Of a stretch of DNA of 22,109 bases, positions 1,635 through 21,873 are shown piece after piece; positions within the stretch are counted from its first letter, which is position 1; every line of letters begins with the position of its first letter. Under the pieces are notes generated by a model. The model did not search any database, had not been told where the DNA came from, and saw only the letters and a list, made by a program, of their open reading frames with translations. Position numbers and translations under genes: made by a program. Source of the DNA: a virus; IMG/VR virus record IMGVR_UViG_3300028025_000369, positions 1 to 22,109 of that record; one strand, 5' to 3'.

Positions 1635-2153
1635 ATGGCTGCTTATGGAACAGGCTATTACGGCCTTGGCGTCTACGGCATAGGGAATGTCGTTATCAGC
1701 GGCAATCAGGCTACTGGTGCTGTTGGCACGCTCCTTACTAACAGATCAATTCAAGAAGATGGAACGATTGCCACAGGCAATGTCGGCACTGTCGGATTAA
1801 CTGTATCCATTGCCATCACAGGCAATGCAGCAACTGGCGCTGTTAACTCGGTATTAGTCTCGCCAATCATCACAGGCAATGCGGCGACTGGTGCTGTTGG
1901 AACAGTATTGGCCGAGGTCATATCGTTCCAAGACATCACAGGCGTTGATGGTACAGGCGCTGTTGACAGTGTTTTGGCCGTCATTGAGGTTGCGATTACT
2001 GGCGTTGAATCTATTGGCGCTGTTGGATCGATGATTGGATATGGTTGGGGAGCTGTACCAAACACATCCGAGAGCTGGACACCAATTTCAGACACATCAG
2101 AAAGTTGGACTGATTTGTCGGACAATTCAGTCACTTGGCAAGAGGCCGCGTAG
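1635..2153 (+). CDS. Virion-associated repeat protein with ATGAVG motifs
   Basis: A 172-aa protein with a Gly/Tyr-rich N-terminus (YGTGYYGLGVYGIG). About six copies follow of a 14-16 residue beta-hairpin-like motif of the type ITGNAATGAVGTVL (residues 19-34, 45-58, 60-74, 79-92, 100-114 and 120-134). The C-terminus carries three tryptophans spaced exactly ten residues apart (W148, W158, W168) within Ser/Asp/Thr-rich sequence. Proteins with this TGxxATGxVG repeat are widespread in environmental phages, next to structural genes; their role is not established as far as I know, and a surface adhesin or fibre-associated role is inference. It precedes the HNH gene by seven bases. Confidence 0.7.
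   Translation: MAAYGTGYYGLGVYGIGNVVISGNQATGAVGTLLTNRSIQEDGTIATGNVGTVGLTVSIAITGNAATGAVNSVLVSPIITGNAATGAVGTVLAEVISFQDITGVDGTGAVDSVLAVIEVAITGVESIGAVGSMIGYGWGAVPNTSESWTPISDTSESWTDLSDNSVTWQEAA
1689..2036 (+). repeat. Degenerate in-frame tandem repeats encoding ATGAVG units
   Basis: The DNA repeats the phrase 'acaggcaatg' plus a variant of 'actggtgctgttgg' at irregular multiples of three bases. The clearest pair lies around 1816-1857 and 1870-1911. The copies differ mostly at third codon positions, which indicates an old expansion kept under protein-level selection and not a fresh slippage event. Confidence 0.7.
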
Positions 2154-14485: not shown

Positions 14486-16111
14486 ATGGCAGACAACATA
14501 CGCGCCACACCACGCAACGAGCTTCTAGGCTTACTGGCTGACGCCATGTATGGTGGCTTGGAGTACATGAAAGACCCGCGCAGAACTCAGCAGATGCAGG
14601 GTTTGGCGGGTCTGCTTGAATCTACTGGCATCCCTAAGACTACTGAGCGTATGGCGTATGGTGAGCCACTCACCAATATTGGCGCTGCCAATGTGCCACT
14701 GCTCAAGCCTGAGACTGCTGAAGCGATGATGACTGTTGCGCCACTTGCACCAGCCGCAGGAAGATTGGCGAGTCGTGCTGTTCGTGCCACTGAGGGTATG
14801 CCTGTTGGGATGAGTATTAAGCCTATAGGTGATGTAACTGGCTTATTACAGCCTACACGCGAATCATTTGTTCCAGGCGTTGAGGCTGGCAAAGAGATGA
14901 TTGTGCATCACAATATCACGCCAGAAAAACTTGCAAGAGTTGAGAAGATTGGTGGAATGCCTGTTCCATCTTTGGCTGTTTCCAATGTAGAAAATCCAAT
15001 GATGAATTTTGGCGACATCTCATTGATTGGGTCAAAAGAAATGGCAATACCATCAGCGAAAAATCCAGTTTATGGGTTTGATGCTTATACAGCAAGAGCA
15101 CCAAAAGTTGATTTTCAAATCGACACAAAATCTCAAAAAAATCTGGCGAAATTATTTGATGATATTTACCCTAAATCATCTTATGAAATTGATAGATTGA
15201 CTCAAAATTGGGGAGATAGAGCGTACAACACTCTTTACAAAGAAAAGTTTTTAAAAGAGCAAGGAGCTTTGCCAAATCGTTCTGAGTTTAAAAGTGATTG
15301 GGAATATTCAAGTGCAATTGGTAATGCTATTGATAATCGAAAATCAGAATACAACAATTGGATGAATGAATTTGAAAAATCTTTACCTGATGCTGGCGTA
15401 AACATTAAAGAGCGAATCTTTAAAGGTTACACAAACATGGGAGATCGTAGATATGCGCCAGTAACACTTGAAAATCTTGTAAAAGAAATGAAAGGTGGTG
15501 CTGGTGAAGAGGGTTACTTCTATGGCGTAGGCAACATTCGAGCAGTAGCTACACCAAAGTTTAGGACACTCAACCAAGTAAAAGCAGCACGCGAAAATAT
15601 TGTCACTGCTGAGAAGTTTGAGCCAATCAAAAAGAAAATTGACAGCGCATTCAATGACTTGAATGAACGACTTGGAAAACTTGAAGGTCAATCTGGTTAT
15701 CGTTATGAAGCACCAGATGCCTTATATGAAATTGGTCAAACACGAAATGTGAATCTATTGGACAAAATCTATAAAGATGTGCCTCAGTCATTGAAGGCTG
15801 ATGTGCAAGTCTTTATGAACAAGTTGCGCGAAATGCCAACAGAGTATTTTGAGATTAAGCCTCAGAGAGCTGTTCAAGTTGGTGAATTTAAAGGTGCAAT
15901 CCTGCCATCATCCGCACCACAGAAATCTATTGACTATTTGAGAGGACAAGGCTTGCAAGACTTGTACTACTACTCAACACCAGAAGAGCGTAAAAACTTG
16001 TTTAAGAAATTTGGCAGTCAGATGTTTGCAGCAACGCCAGCAATTCCACTTGGCTCTGGATTATTTGGACAAGATGAAGATATTCCAGTCATGACTGGAT
16101 TGCTCAAGTAG
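14486..16111 (+). CDS. Ejection-series protein with polyvalent-protein-like domain
   Basis: A 541-aa protein. Residues 8-100 (NELLGLLADAMYGGLEYMKD, ERMAYGEPLTN, LKPETAEAMMTVAPLAP) match N-terminal regions I know from phage internal proteins. Residues 139-210 (IVHHNITPEKLARVEKIGGM, PVPSLAVS, NFGDISLIGSKEMAIP, NPVYGFDAYTARAP) resemble a domain that recurs in the very large 'polyvalent' proteins of phages and conjugative elements, thought to act in the recipient cell. The helical rest contains FGSQMF and ends DEDIPVMTGLLK. DNA from about 14980 to 15480 is clearly AT-richer than the gene's start, suggesting an acquired module. Last gene of the late operon; it meets the leftward operon tail to tail with an 8-base overlap. 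Catalytic activity, if any, is unknown. Confidence 0.65.
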   Translation: MADNIRATPRNELLGLLADAMYGGLEYMKDPRRTQQMQGLAGLLESTGIPKTTERMAYGEPLTNIGAANVPLLKPETAEAMMTVAPLAPAAGRLASRAVRATEGMPVGMSIKPIGDVTGLLQPTRESFVPGVEAGKEMIVHHNITPEKLARVEKIGGMPVPSLAVSNVENPMMNFGDISLIGSKEMAIPSAKNPVYGFDAYTARAPKVDFQIDTKSQKNLAKLFDDIYPKSSYEIDRLTQNWGDRAYNTLYKEKFLKEQGALPNRSEFKSDWEYSSAIGNAIDNRKSEYNNWMNEFEKSLPDAGVNIKERIFKGYTNMGDRRYAPVTLENLVKEMKGGAGEEGYFYGVGNIRAVATPKFRTLNQVKAARENIVTAEKFEPIKKKIDSAFNDLNERLGKLEGQSGYRYEAPDALYEIGQTRNVNLLDKIYKDVPQSLKADVQVFMNKLREMPTEYFEIKPQRAVQVGEFKGAILPSSAPQKSIDYLRGQGLQDLYYYSTPEERKNLFKKFGSQMFAATPAIPLGSGLFGQDEDIPVMTGLLK

Positions 16112-17178: not shown

Positions 17179-17190
17179 GTGTTGAGTTCC

Positions 17191-17256
17191 TTACTTTGCA
17201 AGCAATACACCGGCAATAAAGCACAGCGCTAAAAAAATAAGATAACTGTCGCTCAT
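17191..17256 (-). CDS. Single-pass membrane micro-protein (21 aa)
   Basis: A 22-codon frame from ATG 17256, preceded by a strong AAGGAG and overlapping the previous stop (ATGA), ends at TAA 17191-17193. The product MSDSYLIFLALCFIAGVLLA plus a final Lys is almost entirely one hydrophobic helix. Position, ribosome-binding site and coupling argue for translation even though it is tiny. Small hydrophobic phage peptides can act in lysis control, membrane depolarisation or superinfection exclusion, but nothing here picks one. Confidence 0.6.
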   Translation of the reverse strand: MSDSYLIFLALCFIAGVLLAK

Positions 17257-17270
17257 GTGTTCTTCTCCTT
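17253..17270 (-). repeat. Junction repeat copy A (AAGGAGAAGAACACATGA)
   Basis: On the minus strand these 18 bases encode Lys-Glu-Lys-Asn-Thr-stop of the upstream gene, contain the AAGGAG Shine-Dalgarno site, and hold the ATG of the 21-aa gene overlapping the stop. They are identical to copies at 17444 and 17698. Confidence 0.9.
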
Positions 17271-17447
17271 ACGCATTTCCATTTCATTTATGAGTTCTCC
17301 GCACAAGCAACGTGCTTCATCGTTACCTCCATTAACCGTGATGATCACAATGTCGCCATCAACACGGACACCGCGAATTAACTTTGACCAATGGTTGCGG
17401 TAAAACTTTTCAAGCATTTGATTTTCTTGCTCAGACGTGAGTGTCAT
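17253..17447 (-). CDS. Small protein of unknown function (64 aa)
   Basis: The product begins MTLTSEQENQMLEKFYRNHW and has a beta-rich centre (LIRGVRVDGDIVIITVNGGN) and a helical end (CLCGELINEMEMRKEKNT). The ATG overlaps the preceding stop. Its last codons (KEKNT-stop) are the shared junction sequence that also carries the ribosome-binding site and start of the next gene. Two cysteines (CLC) are present but no metal motif. No family is recognised. Confidence 0.7.
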   Translation of the reverse strand: MTLTSEQENQMLEKFYRNHWSKLIRGVRVDGDIVIITVNGGNDEARCLCGELINEMEMRKEKNT

Positions 17448-17473
17448 GTGTTCTTCTCCTTGAGTTTGGCTTC
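17444..17473 (-). repeat. Junction repeat copy B, 30-base form
   Basis: The same 18-base core, extended by twelve bases that encode the preceding Glu-Ala-Lys-Leu. It is identical over 30 bases to copy C. It joins the 85-aa gene to the 64-aa gene. Confidence 0.9.
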
Positions 17474-17701
17474 AATGGCTTGGGCAAACGCTTTTAGTTC
17501 ACCCATACTGAATTTGTCGAAATACAAATCTTCAATCTCCTCATCCGTCAGCCCTACCCATGTGCGCTTTTGAAAAGGTTGCATTTCGTAGAGCCGCCCA
17601 CCCTGAAAAGCCTCTGCTATCAACTTGAGAATTTCAGGGGATACACCGATTTGATACAGGTGGTTTTCACGCCACTGTTCAAACGGGGATTTTTGATTCA
17701 T
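17444..17701 (-). CDS. Phage protein with WxGLT motif, paralogue of its upstream neighbour (85 aa)
   Basis: The start at 17701 overlaps the preceding stop (ATGA) with AAGGAG upstream; the frame open to 17764 lies within the neighbour. The product contains MNQKSPFEQWRENHLYQIGV, FQGGRLYEMQPFQKRTWVGL, TDEEIEDLYFDKFSMGELKA and ends AIEAKLKEKNT. The segment (R)xWxGLTxEE followed by a helix and an identical AKLKEKNT tail is shared with the gene upstream, so the two look like diverged copies or recombinants. The WVGLTDEE motif is widespread in small proteins of proteobacterial phages; I do not know a proven function. Confidence 0.75.
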   Translation of the reverse strand: MNQKSPFEQWRENHLYQIGVSPEILKLIAEAFQGGRLYEMQPFQKRTWVGLTDEEIEDLYFDKFSMGELKAFAQAIEAKLKEKNT

Positions 17702-17727
17702 GTGTTCTTCTCCTTGAGTTTGGCTTC
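17698..17727 (-). repeat. Junction repeat copy C, 30-base form
   Basis: Identical over 30 bases to copy B. It encodes the Ala-Lys-Leu-Lys-Glu-Lys-Asn-Thr end of the 111-aa gene and the ribosome-binding site and ATG of the 85-aa gene. Confidence 0.9.
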
Positions 17728-18033
17728 TGCCCACAATGCGCCAGCACGAAAGTCTGATGACCAATCAGTGGTTGCCAATTGTTCTTTTGTCAGCCCTGCC
17801 CATATGCGCTGTGGTGGGTGGGTGAAAAGTTTTGTACCCATAGGCAATGCAGGTTCATGCCACCAAGACATTGTTATGTCTGCTCCTGTTTCACTTGTGA
17901 CTGTCGCCACAGGCTCTTGGCTTTCCAACTCTGCAATGGCTTGGCGCAAAATAACTTCAAGCTGGTTGCAAACTGTTGGCGCATGAGGCTCAGTCAACAA
18001 TAGTTGATACATCTGTTTCAATACTTCAATCAT
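17698..18033 (-). CDS. Phage protein with QEPVATV and WxGLT motifs (111 aa)
   Basis: The N-terminal helix region has IEVLKQMYQLLL and LEVILRQAIAELESQEPVAT. A beta-type centre follows (VTSETGADITMSWWHEPALP, MGTKLFTHPPQRIWAGLTKE), and the C-terminal helix ends WAEAKLKEKNT. The pattern AxxxxxxQEPVA ... LxTxPPQRxWxGLTxEE is one I know as very common in small proteins of betaproteobacterial phages; the role is unestablished. Its ATG overlaps the stop of the upstream gene (ATGA). It shares its end with the downstream gene, suggesting duplication within the operon. Confidence 0.8.
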   Translation of the reverse strand: MIEVLKQMYQLLLTEPHAPTVCNQLEVILRQAIAELESQEPVATVTSETGADITMSWWHEPALPMGTKLFTHPPQRIWAGLTKEQLATTDWSSDFRAGALWAEAKLKEKNT

Positions 18034-18293
18034 GCTTGTCCCATTGCTCTGATGCGTTCAGCAATCACATCGCCACCAATAAATCCATCAGCCACCTTTG
18101 CACAGGCTTCACGTTCAAACGCAACCATCTTTTCACACATCAATGTCCAAGAAGCATTGGCTCTTGCGTTGGATTTCTCTGTTGCTTTCTCTTCCACCAA
18201 TGCGGCAAATTCTTCTGCGGCTTTTTGCCATTCTGGGTGCTGGATTGGGAACCCAACACGCTTTGCCATCTCAATGATTTCATCTTGTGTCAC
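18030..18293 (-). CDS. Conserved phage hypothetical protein with EREACAK-type motif (87 aa)
   Basis: The start is GTG at 18293, which overlaps the previous TGA (GTGA) and has GGAG upstream. The product begins MTQDEIIEMAKRVGFPIQHP and continues KAAEEFAALVEEKATEKSNA, then FEREACAKVADGF and AERIRAMGQA. The EIIxMAxxxGF start and the (F)EREACAKVA ... IAxxIRAxG end are typical of a small protein found in many phages of Gram-negative hosts. The fold is mostly helical. Its role is unknown to me. Confidence 0.8.
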   Translation of the reverse strand: MTQDEIIEMAKRVGFPIQHPEWQKAAEEFAALVEEKATEKSNARANASWTLMCEKMVAFEREACAKVADGFIGGDVIAERIRAMGQA

Positions 18294-18448
18294 TTCTTCT
18301 TCTCCTTAATCTCTTTCTGAATGCCTGCGCTCATTTGCAAGAACATCCGCATCCACTTGACACCGCCCAAGCGAACATATTCTGCATATTCGGATTGGGT
18401 GAGGCGCAGCGTGATGGCGCGTCCCAACTCTGTCTTTTCCTTAACCAT
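18290..18448 (-). CDS. Small basic protein, possible ribbon-helix-helix type (52 aa)
   Basis: The frame runs from ATG 18448 (TGATG overlap with the upstream stop) to the TGA at 18290-18292, which overlaps the next GTG. The product contains MVKEKTELGRAITLRLTQSE, YAEYVRLGGVKWMRMFLQ and ends in a very basic tail EIKEKKK. The short beta strand AITLRLT followed by two helices suits a ribbon-helix-helix DNA-binding protein, where the strand pairs in a dimer and enters the major groove. This is pattern-level evidence only. The end carries a degenerate form of the junction repeat (GGAGAAGAAGAAGTGA). Confidence 0.65.
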   Translation of the reverse strand: MVKEKTELGRAITLRLTQSEYAEYVRLGGVKWMRMFLQMSAGIQKEIKEKKK

Positions 18449-19843: not shown

Positions 19844-20083
19844 ATGAAAACGATTTCACAAGAAGCACTCCACGCCATAAGGCACAAAGTTGAATGCGCT
19901 GGCTACAAGATGTCTGATGTCTGCCGCGTTGCGGAGATAGATCAGGCGCAAGTATCCCGCTGGATGAGTGGGACCACAGAGCCACTATACGGCAGCGTAA
20001 TGCGTTTGGATCAGGCAGCCGATGCTTTGGTATCAGCTCGCCTCACAGTCCTCAACAAAGCCATGGAGGACGCCGTCAAATGA
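19844..20083 (+). CDS. Small helix-turn-helix DNA-binding protein, Cro/XRE-like
   Basis: From ATG 19844 the product is 79 aa: MKTISQEALHAIRHKVECAG, then a helix-turn-helix at about residues 21-43 (YKMSDVCRVAEIDQAQVSRW, MSG), followed by EPLYGSVMRLDQAADAL helices. QAQVSRWMSG fits the recognition helix of Cro/XRE-like regulators. An in-frame ATG at 19826 would add six residues; neither start has a Shine-Dalgarno site, and the predicted promoter favours 19844 with a leaderless message. It is divergent from the leftward operon and first in the rightward one, the usual place for a phage transcriptional switch protein. The operators remain to be identified. Confidence 0.75.
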   Translation: MKTISQEALHAIRHKVECAGYKMSDVCRVAEIDQAQVSRWMSGTTEPLYGSVMRLDQAADALVSARLTVLNKAMEDAVK

Positions 20084-20565
20084 GTACATTTAAACCGCGC
20101 CGCATCATTGGCATTGACGTTGGACTGAACGGCGCTATCGCCATGATGCAGGGCGAAACCCTGACCGGCATTTTCGATATGCCCACAGTCACTTTGGATC
20201 GCAACGGCAAAGCCAAGCGACAGATCAGCATCCCTGAGCTGATCACCATCCTCAACGACTTCAAGCCTGATGAGGCGTACATCGAAAAGGTCTTTGCAAT
20301 GTCAGGCCAGGGCGTCACCAGCGTATTCAGCTTTGGGCGCAGCCTTGGTGCGATTGAGGGTGTCATCGCCGCGAGATCCATCAAAGCCACTCTGATTACG
20401 CCACAGACATGGCAAAAGGCGATGGGCGTGACTGGTGGTAAGGACGGCGCAAGGGCGCGTGCCATGGAGCTGTTTCCATGGAATGTGGACTACTTCAAAC
20501 GTAAGAAAGATGATGGCCGAGCAGATGCGGCGCTGATTGCTTGTTGGGGACTGCGCCATGGCTGA
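20080..20565 (+). CDS. ruvC: RuvC-like Holliday junction resolvase
   Basis: A 161-aa protein with the RNase H-fold RuvC signature: IGIDVGLNGAIA with Asp13 in strand 1, DEAYIEKVFAM with Glu69, then FSFGRSLGAIEGVI, LITPQTWQKAMGV, and the final acidic pair in KKDDGRADAALIACWG (Asp145 and Asp149). These four acidic residues bind two metals and cut four-way DNA junctions. Phage RuvC-like enzymes resolve recombination or replication branches before packaging. Length is slightly shorter than bacterial RuvC, normal for phage forms. Its ATG overlaps the previous stop (ATGA). Its neighbours indicate a recombination/replication module. Confidence 0.9.
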   Translation: MSTFKPRRIIGIDVGLNGAIAMMQGETLTGIFDMPTVTLDRNGKAKRQISIPELITILNDFKPDEAYIEKVFAMSGQGVTSVFSFGRSLGAIEGVIAARSIKATLITPQTWQKAMGVTGGKDGARARAMELFPWNVDYFKRKKDDGRADAALIACWGLRHG

Positions 20566-20785
20566 TCAAGAACGAGCCACCATGCGCGAACACATCATCT
20601 ATTTAGCGAATCAGTTGGAGATCTCGCGCAAAGCAAATCAGCAGCAGATCGTCTTCATCAAGCGATTGCTTGACCCTGAAGACTTAGGTCACGCCGTCAG
20701 CAACGAAACCCGACAGATTGCATACACGCTGTTAATTAACAGTTCACACATAGAAAGAGACTCATGGCAACACAAAAACCCTTGA
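20558..20785 (+). CDS. Small helical protein of unknown function (75 aa)
   Basis: The start at 20558 lies eight bases inside the end of the resolvase gene; an in-frame codon at 20537 is less likely. The product contains MADQERATMREHIIYLANQL, EISRKANQQQIVFIKRLLDP and NETRQIAYTLLIN. It is helical, amphipathic and soluble, with no zinc or nuclease motif. Its end overlaps the nuclease gene by 22 bases. It sits between two DNA-processing genes and may serve as a cofactor, but I do not recognise a family. Confidence 0.65.
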   Translation: MADQERATMREHIIYLANQLEISRKANQQQIVFIKRLLDPEDLGHAVSNETRQIAYTLLINSSHIERDSWQHKNP

Positions 20786-21873
20786 AACTTAGACCATCAT
20801 CCGCATCGCGTTGGATCGCCTGCCCTGCCAGCGCCAGACTATCAACGCTTGTGCCTTACCAAGAATCAGGCGAGGCAGCAAAGATCGGTACTGCCATTCA
20901 CGCGCTGGCCGAGACTTGCTTTCAGCTCGACACCGACCCCATGAAGTTTGTCGGTCAAGTGGTGGAGGGCATCACCATGACTGAAGAGAATTGCGAGTTT
21001 GCCTTGGAGCATTTGCAGGCTATCTGGGCGATTCAAGATGAGCTTGGGTATGTCAAGGTGGAGCAGCTCTACAAGCTCTACCAAACGTCACAGTTTTCGC
21101 TACAAGGCACTGCTGATGTCATGGGCATATCGCAGGACAAACTGATCATTGCCGACCTTAAAACAGGCCGCGGCTATGTTGACGCTGACAGCGAACAGAT
21201 GAAGATCTACGCGCTGGGTGCGTTGATGGACCACAGCGAAAAGCCCAGAGAAGTCGAGTTTCAAATCATCCAGCCACATCATGGTGAGAAGCGCATACAC
21301 CGCATGAGCGTGGACGAGTTGGGCGTGTGGGAGACAGAGGTTCTGCTGCCGGCCATCAATGAGGCTGTGAGCGATGCACCGCGTTATGCGCCATCAGAGT
21401 CAGCCTGCCAGTGGTGTCCAGCAAAGCACATTTGCTCTGCACAGAAAGAGCAGTTCGACATTGTGGCGGCGCAACCTGACATCACCATCATGTCAAAAGA
21501 GGACATCAAAGAAGTGATGCTGACTCTCACGCCGGCACAGATCGGCGCCATATTGGATCGCGCACCGATGGTTGAGAAGTTCATTGAGGCAGTAAAGGAT
21601 CACGCCACCAAGCAGATGGAGGCTGGCGCCGTACTACCAGGCTGGCAGCTCCAACCCAAACGCGCCTCGCGCAAGTGGATTGACTCAACAGCCGCGCGTC
21701 AGGCTCTTACTGACGCAGGACTTACAGATTCTCAGATATTTGAGACAGAACTAATTTCTCCTACGGCGGCTGAAAAGCTACTGCCAAAGGAACAAAGAGT
21801 TATCTTGGACGATCTCACGGCCAAGGTATCAAGTGGCTTAACGCTTGCGAGAGATCGCAGCTTGAGTCAATAA
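20764..21873 (+). CDS. DUF2800-type PD-(D/E)XK nuclease with Cas4/AddB-like Fe-S cysteine set
   Basis: A 369-aa protein. SSASRWIACPASARLS (Cys20) and IGTAIHALAE (His46) open the domain. The catalytic core is GTADVMGIS (Asp118), KLIIADLKTGRG (Asp131 and Lys133) and EQMKIYALGAL (Gln145, Tyr149). Cys215-x2-Cys218-x5-Cys224 in ESACQWCPAKHICSAQ completes, with Cys20, the four-cysteine pattern that binds a 4Fe-4S cluster in Cas4 and AddB nucleases. DUF2800 proteins of phages are taken to be single-strand or end-processing exonucleases for recombination. The C-terminal third is a helical and beta tail (PGWQLQPKRASRKW, TAAEKLLPKE). The Fe-S cluster and activity are inferred from residues. Confidence 0.85.
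   Translation: MATQKPLKLRPSSASRWIACPASARLSTLVPYQESGEAAKIGTAIHALAETCFQLDTDPMKFVGQVVEGITMTEENCEFALEHLQAIWAIQDELGYVKVEQLYKLYQTSQFSLQGTADVMGISQDKLIIADLKTGRGYVDADSEQMKIYALGALMDHSEKPREVEFQIIQPHHGEKRIHRMSVDELGVWETEVLLPAINEAVSDAPRYAPSESACQWCPAKHICSAQKEQFDIVAAQPDITIMSKEDIKEVMLTLTPAQIGAILDRAPMVEKFIEAVKDHATKQMEAGAVLPGWQLQPKRASRKWIDSTAARQALTDAGLTDSQIFETELISPTAAEKLLPKEQRVILDDLTAKVSSGLTLARDRSLSQ

Follow-up and report, generated by a model that had tools for sequence, protein, structure and literature searches.

The window, by which we mean the whole stretch analysed here, comprises 22,109 nt (positions 1 to 22,109) of the viral record IMGVR_UViG_3300028025_000369 from IMG/VR. On its minus strand, a series of small genes is joined by three exact copies of the 18-mer AAGGAGAAGAACACATGA, hereafter the linker, located at 17698-17715 (copy 1), 17444-17461 (copy 2), and 17253-17270 (copy 3). 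Copy 1 encodes the KEKNT-stop of P1 (111 aa, 17698-18033) and provides the ribosome-binding site (RBS) and ATG of P2 (85 aa, 17444-17701). Copy 2 does the same for the end of P2 and the start of P3 (64 aa, 17253-17447), and copy 3 ends P3 and starts a 21-aa ORF (17191-17256; MSDSYLIFLALCFIAGVLLAK) that is conserved in locus L001. In all three cases AAGGAG lies inside the upstream gene at a distance of 8 nt from the ATG, and ATGA combines the stop with the next start, leaving no intergenic gap. This is the anatomy of a coupled stop/start junction, in which an overlap is accompanied by a Shine-Dalgarno (SD) sequence at a suitable distance. The original prediction had described three exact minus-strand copies, each serving as KEKNT-stop, AAGGAG, and overlapping ATG, and had noted that two are alike over 30 bases; we recovered each of these features, with the 30-nt identity falling between 17444-17473 and 17698-17727. 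The copy at 17253 is 70% identical across the same length. When up to three mismatches are allowed, 0.06 matches to the linker are expected by chance, and four or more matches occurred in none of 100 shuffles.

P1 ends in a C-terminal module of the form W-x-GLT...EAKLKEKNT. P2 has a module of the same type (42% over 53 aa) behind a different N-terminus. We rejected a recent tandem duplication of P1 and P2 since this module is all that they have in common, and we rejected the 30-nt identity as a sign of duplication because it is the commonest form of the EAKLKEKNT end everywhere. P3 is without the module, and the tails of its homologues read KEKNT, EEKNT, HGND, DG, and others. Family searches with P1 to P5 gave no significant family.

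The linker-joined genes lie in a variable slot (17179-18289, minus strand) that was delimited by comparison with relatives and is flanked by P5 (18290-18451, minus) and g170 (17178-17029). This slot contains no genes in L226, one in L204, two in each of L224 and L225, and five in the window, and most slot genes end in KEKNT or in GQA, the latter belonging to a second linker. P4 (87 aa, 18030-18293, minus) ends in ...MGQA (ATGGGACAAGCATGA), with 18030-18044 representing a variant of the second linker GCAAGGGGACAAGCATGA. P5 is conserved and ends in AAGGAGAAGAAGAAGTGA, where 18290-18307 forms a fourth match to the 18-mer with three mismatches. It had been taken for a degenerate copy, and it does perform the same job at its junction, but the P5 tail varies from phage to phage (IKEAKK, IKEVKK, VNNK, and others) while the gene itself is kept in relatives. 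We therefore think it unlikely that the end of P5 is a linker copy.

Several other features of the window were observed. Adjoining the slot, at 20080-21873 on the plus strand, are a RuvC-like resolvase gene and a PD-(D/E)XK/DUF2800 exonuclease gene, both conserved in most relatives; no annealase was identified in the window. A 541-aa protein (14486-16111, plus) has a PBECR5 domain (Barnase/EndoU/RelE-like nuclease; Pfam 8e-22) and is possibly a virion-delivered effector. A small phage protein (16472-16804, minus) has a C2H2-zinc-finger-like stretch (PF23447, above cut-off), and five imperfect 42-nt repeats with a spacing of 54-120 are found at 1694-2035 (plus), in a gene region that precedes the tail fibre gene on its upstream side.

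The exact 18-mer is present in at least 120 IMG/VR contigs, with 143 copies among the matches listed and at most four per locus. A synonymous version of KEKNT was present in 77 contigs, and about half of its distinct copies end the W-x-GLT module. Requiring the preceding codon to start with A or G, and hence never to encode Leu, again gave at least 120 contigs. Since a non-Leu codon excludes the commonest type of upstream gene, the module alone does not account for the linker's abundance. Fourteen contigs were common to the non-Leu scan and the initial set of 120; provided that contigs are scanned in a fixed order, this overlap would put the total very roughly at 1,000 or more, and our rough estimate is that hundreds or more uncultivated phage contigs carry the 18-mer. 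In 257 Gb of contigs from bacteria and archaea it was found in 59, and most of these 59 matches are not phage-type KEKNT gene ends. We rejected a prophage reservoir, as the 18-mer occurred in 1 of 399 genomes from the order of its Rhodoferax carrier, that one being the carrier itself. Close relatives of the window, collected via its exonuclease, had the exact linker in 3 of 80 loci, many of them short and missing the region, indicating that the element is spread over different phages and is not characteristic of the window's lineage. Cultured phages with a match were two Dishui Lake phages and a few Manatee Spring records, with otherwise weak matches, and a few linker-bearing records are from freshwater. 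Near absence from cultured phage records may explain why we found no published description of the element.

Abundance of this kind could in principle arise by convergence, with AAGGAG, an 8-nt spacer, and ATGA constituting an optimal coupled start that selection on translation has reached many times. Among 72 AAGGAG-N(3-12)-ATGA sites in unselected relatives, N8 was indeed the commonest spacing (47 sites, with 23 different spacers), so selection on the SD sequence and its spacing is real. However, a control that kept the SD, spacing, and composition while permuting the spacer (a single permutation) matched 15 contigs in the whole IMG/VR collection, compared to at least 120 for the linker. Furthermore, whole linkers are swapped between near-identical gene bodies, and phages with different downstream genes stay identical upstream as far as the linker. 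We consider convergence very improbable.

To characterize what the linker joins, we collected 336 distinct copies and assigned the flanking genes to families by BLASTP clustering. The linker itself served in part to select the loci, the contigs are fragments, and the near-duplicate filter removed exact duplicates only. These copies join 63 upstream families to 156 downstream families. The tabulation of flanking genes that had been suggested as a check thus supported the prediction, with the same junction found between 181 different gene-family pairs. Upstream genes end in the W-x-GLT...EAKLKEKNT module at 190 of the 336 copies, in LKEKNT without the module at 32, and are other genes at 79. At the remaining copies (32-35, about 10%) no in-frame upstream gene exists and the linker is not translated as KEKNT; here, the upstream gene usually stops just before the linker or overlaps its first bases in another frame. 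With 190 copies coming from a single module family, ordinary homology explains part of the repeat, but not all of it.

The size of this family raises the possibility that the 18-mer hitch-hikes as the conserved 3' end of an abundant type of gene, spread by illegitimate recombination and by selection for intact genes and RBSs, in which case it would mark exchange rather than promote it. Consistent with this explanation, 69 of the 115 module ends sampled by peptide were KEKNT. The 79 copies that end unrelated genes and the approximately 35 without an in-frame gene argue against it, as do the 120 or more contigs in which a non-Leu codon precedes the 18-mer. The same gene body also carries different linkers in different phages. 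For example, a gene in L456 that is 99% identical to its versions in L347 and L364 continues out of frame into an IEAKL tail, where a TAA stop precedes an intact linker that still starts the next gene. Depending on the phage, this one gene body ends in KEKNT, KENT, or the out-of-frame IEAKL and TAA. Together with the roughly 10% of copies not translated as KEKNT, the L456 case implies that the linker works as DNA or RNA and not as a peptide.

Codon usage further distinguished the linker from its surroundings. Among EAKLKEKNT ends sampled blind to codon choice, 63-67 of 69 sequences used the linker's codon at each of K, E, K, N, T, and the stop, while the L just before KEKNT was encoded by five codons and the K ahead of that L by two. 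Near-invariance at synonymous sites, along with retention of the linker where it is untranslated, would be expected if a phage protein or RNA bound the 18-mer to control translation, and if the site had spread through the genes' need for such control. Weighing against a recognition site, the linker had no Rfam match, contained no palindrome, and showed no conserved fold, folding no better than shuffles (z of 1.0, -0.9, and 0.6); moreover, homologous downstream genes are preceded by other linkers. We regard a recognition site as improbable. A structured RNA or Rfam element was rejected on the same absence of an Rfam match and a conserved fold.

The second linker (encoding RARGQA-stop) likewise occurs in at least 120 IMG/VR contigs. 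At its loci (L549-L656), 12 upstream families, one of them dominant, precede 59 downstream families, and 12 downstream families follow both linkers. Additional recurring joints were observed at control ATGA junctions of viral loci, including AAAGCGAGGGAAGCATGA, GCAAGGGGTGAGCAATGA, and AAGGAGCGCAACACATGA, as well as GCAAGGGGGAACACATGA, which looks like a hybrid with the left part of the second linker and the right part of the first. The peptide ends of these further joints are KAREA, ARGEQ, KERNT, and the apparent hybrid ARGNT.

Comparison of related phages revealed what happens at the junctions. DNA identity between phages runs to the 18-mer and then drops to background, on its right or left side depending on the pair. 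Loci L285 and L384 are 94.5% identical over the 748 bp before the site and 99.9% identical over the 1,383 bp after it, and what separates them at the site is exactly one 435-bp unit, running from linker to linker and encoding a Dam methylase. This Dam-type adenine methyltransferase (PF05869) is a single linker-bounded gene, lying between two linkers in L384 and also present in L393. At the position of window copy 3, L001 has a 1,543-bp insert of seven genes, chained by ATGA or nearly so, that is bounded by a one-mismatch linker and an exact linker; a P3-like gene and the 21-aa ORF flank the insertion site and are shared with the window. Relative to L001, the window's joint matches the P3 side as far as CGT and, from AAGGAG onward, the second of the two copies that bound the insert, which is the pattern expected if a crossover took place within the linker or at its edge. 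Other insertions, deletions, or swaps of units were found, including at the second linker. In two respects the linker resembles a lambdoid-type boundary, being a sequence common to the joints of differing modules and having the joints of gain, loss, and swap inside it. Gene order in related genomes was also far from constant, and the linker, being widely spread in IMG/VR, is no local tandem duplication.

We compared these exchanges with those at other SD-ATGA junctions on the same contigs. At linker junctions, 48 pairs of loci were homologous on one flank only and 3 on both, versus 180 and 41 pairs, respectively, at the other junctions. Partner switching was thus 94% at the linker versus 81% at other ATGA junctions (Fisher p = 0.03 counted by pair, 0.17 by independent component). 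Among 298 cases in which the downstream gene was kept and the upstream gene changed, neither linker was present in 138 (46%). Switching at linker-free junctions and the 46% of replacements without a shared linker imply that exchange can proceed without the linker. In our reading, these operons generally exchange genes at gene starts, and a single linker is strongly over-represented at such sites. Frequent switching without a linker also fits the hitch-hiking explanation, whereas the joints of single-unit insertions and deletions fall within the 18-mer, and overall we judge hitch-hiking to be rather unlikely, though the most probable of the rival explanations. The proposal that the repeat is a recombination linker consequently held in part: whole genes are gained, lost, and swapped while the joint is kept, but the repeat is no more than a candidate cause, and switching at it is only modestly raised.

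Chains of small phage genes have precedents. The lambda nin region, as Kroeger and Hobom reportedly described in 1982, is a chain of interlinked small accessory genes with ATGA overlaps and RBSs inside the upstream gene. To our knowledge, the nin joints are not known as one sequence common to unrelated gene pairs of many phages. Boundary, or linker, sequences were proposed for lambdoid phages (Susskind & Botstein 1978; Clark et al. 2001, on HK620; both as cited in PMC3029335, with the same idea in PMC2327257). Such sequences are described as not seen at most mosaic joints, with illegitimate and homeologous recombination as competing models. The likeness lies in a short conserved joint between differing modules that is a proposed site of homologous recombination. 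The window's element differs in being itself stop, RBS, and start, in joining single small genes, and in occurring several times per genome and in many unrelated uncultivated phages.

Two other families of repeated elements are similar in placement. Start-Associated Sequences of Cluster K mycobacteriophages (PMC3203893), and a similar motif of Cluster EF Microbacterium phages (PMC7302621), are of unknown function and are likewise short, repeated, unusually conserved at the RBS of different gene families, and mostly in one orientation. Their sequences differ from the linker (GGGATAGGAGCCC and GGGAAAGGACCCC versus AAGGAGAAGAACACATGA). About half of the Cluster K sites have an extra inverted repeat (ESAS), and in Cluster EF phages the companion motif occupies non-coding gaps, whereas the linker overlaps the upstream stop, is inside coding sequence, has no conserved stem, and is a place where gene swaps are visible. 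The linker is thus not a member of this group. PeSLs of T4-type phages (Arbiol 2010; Comeau 2014; both as cited in PMC4503421) are mobile regulatory cassettes with reported modular shuffling, and resemble the linker as repeated regulatory elements between small accessory genes. Of the shuffling cassettes known so far, they come closest to it. By that account PeSLs are early promoters with stem-loops, in contrast to an 18-nt translational joint that has no intergenic gap and no conserved fold, which places the linker outside this class as well. It is a boundary-sequence-like element, set apart by combining stop, RBS, and start in one, between single small genes.

On balance, we think it probable that the 18-mer is a standard translational joint ending exchangeable small phage genes, and that the units are swapped, likeliest by recombination at the linker. 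A unit would consist of a small gene and its 3' linker, which ends the gene, carries the SD sequence, and overlaps the next ATG, an anatomy apparent at each copy in the window. Because the linker supplies stop, SD, and start overlap, any unit placed before any ORF would keep the operon translated, and the downstream gene is presumably translationally coupled to the upstream one. Comparison of phages shows gain, loss, and exchange of units among co-infecting phages or prophages, the joints falling within the linker. In the likeliest route, linker copies would undergo homologous recombination or strand annealing with one another, perhaps often helped by the preceding EAKL codons, to give about 30 nt in all, and by phage recombination functions. 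Counting against exchange driven by linker homology, 18 bp is short for homologous recombination. The linker itself probably originated as the C-terminal end of the W-x-GLT...EAKLKEKNT module and would then have been grafted onto other genes.

Judged from their sequences, these operons look to be built of gene-plus-3'-linker units that would keep their coupling when exchanged. More tentatively, a small set of standard linkers (KEKNT, RARGQA, and a few others), common to unrelated uncultivated phages, may have been selected both as joint and as recombination handle, making single accessory genes plug-in parts from a common pool. For decades it has been argued whether phage mosaicism results from recombination at short boundary sequences or from illegitimate joining. 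One exact 18-bp boundary, present in what we estimate to be hundreds or more contigs and accompanied by clean single-gene insertions between near-identical phages, makes this question directly testable. It also suggests how small accessory genes may join an operon and be expressed at once.
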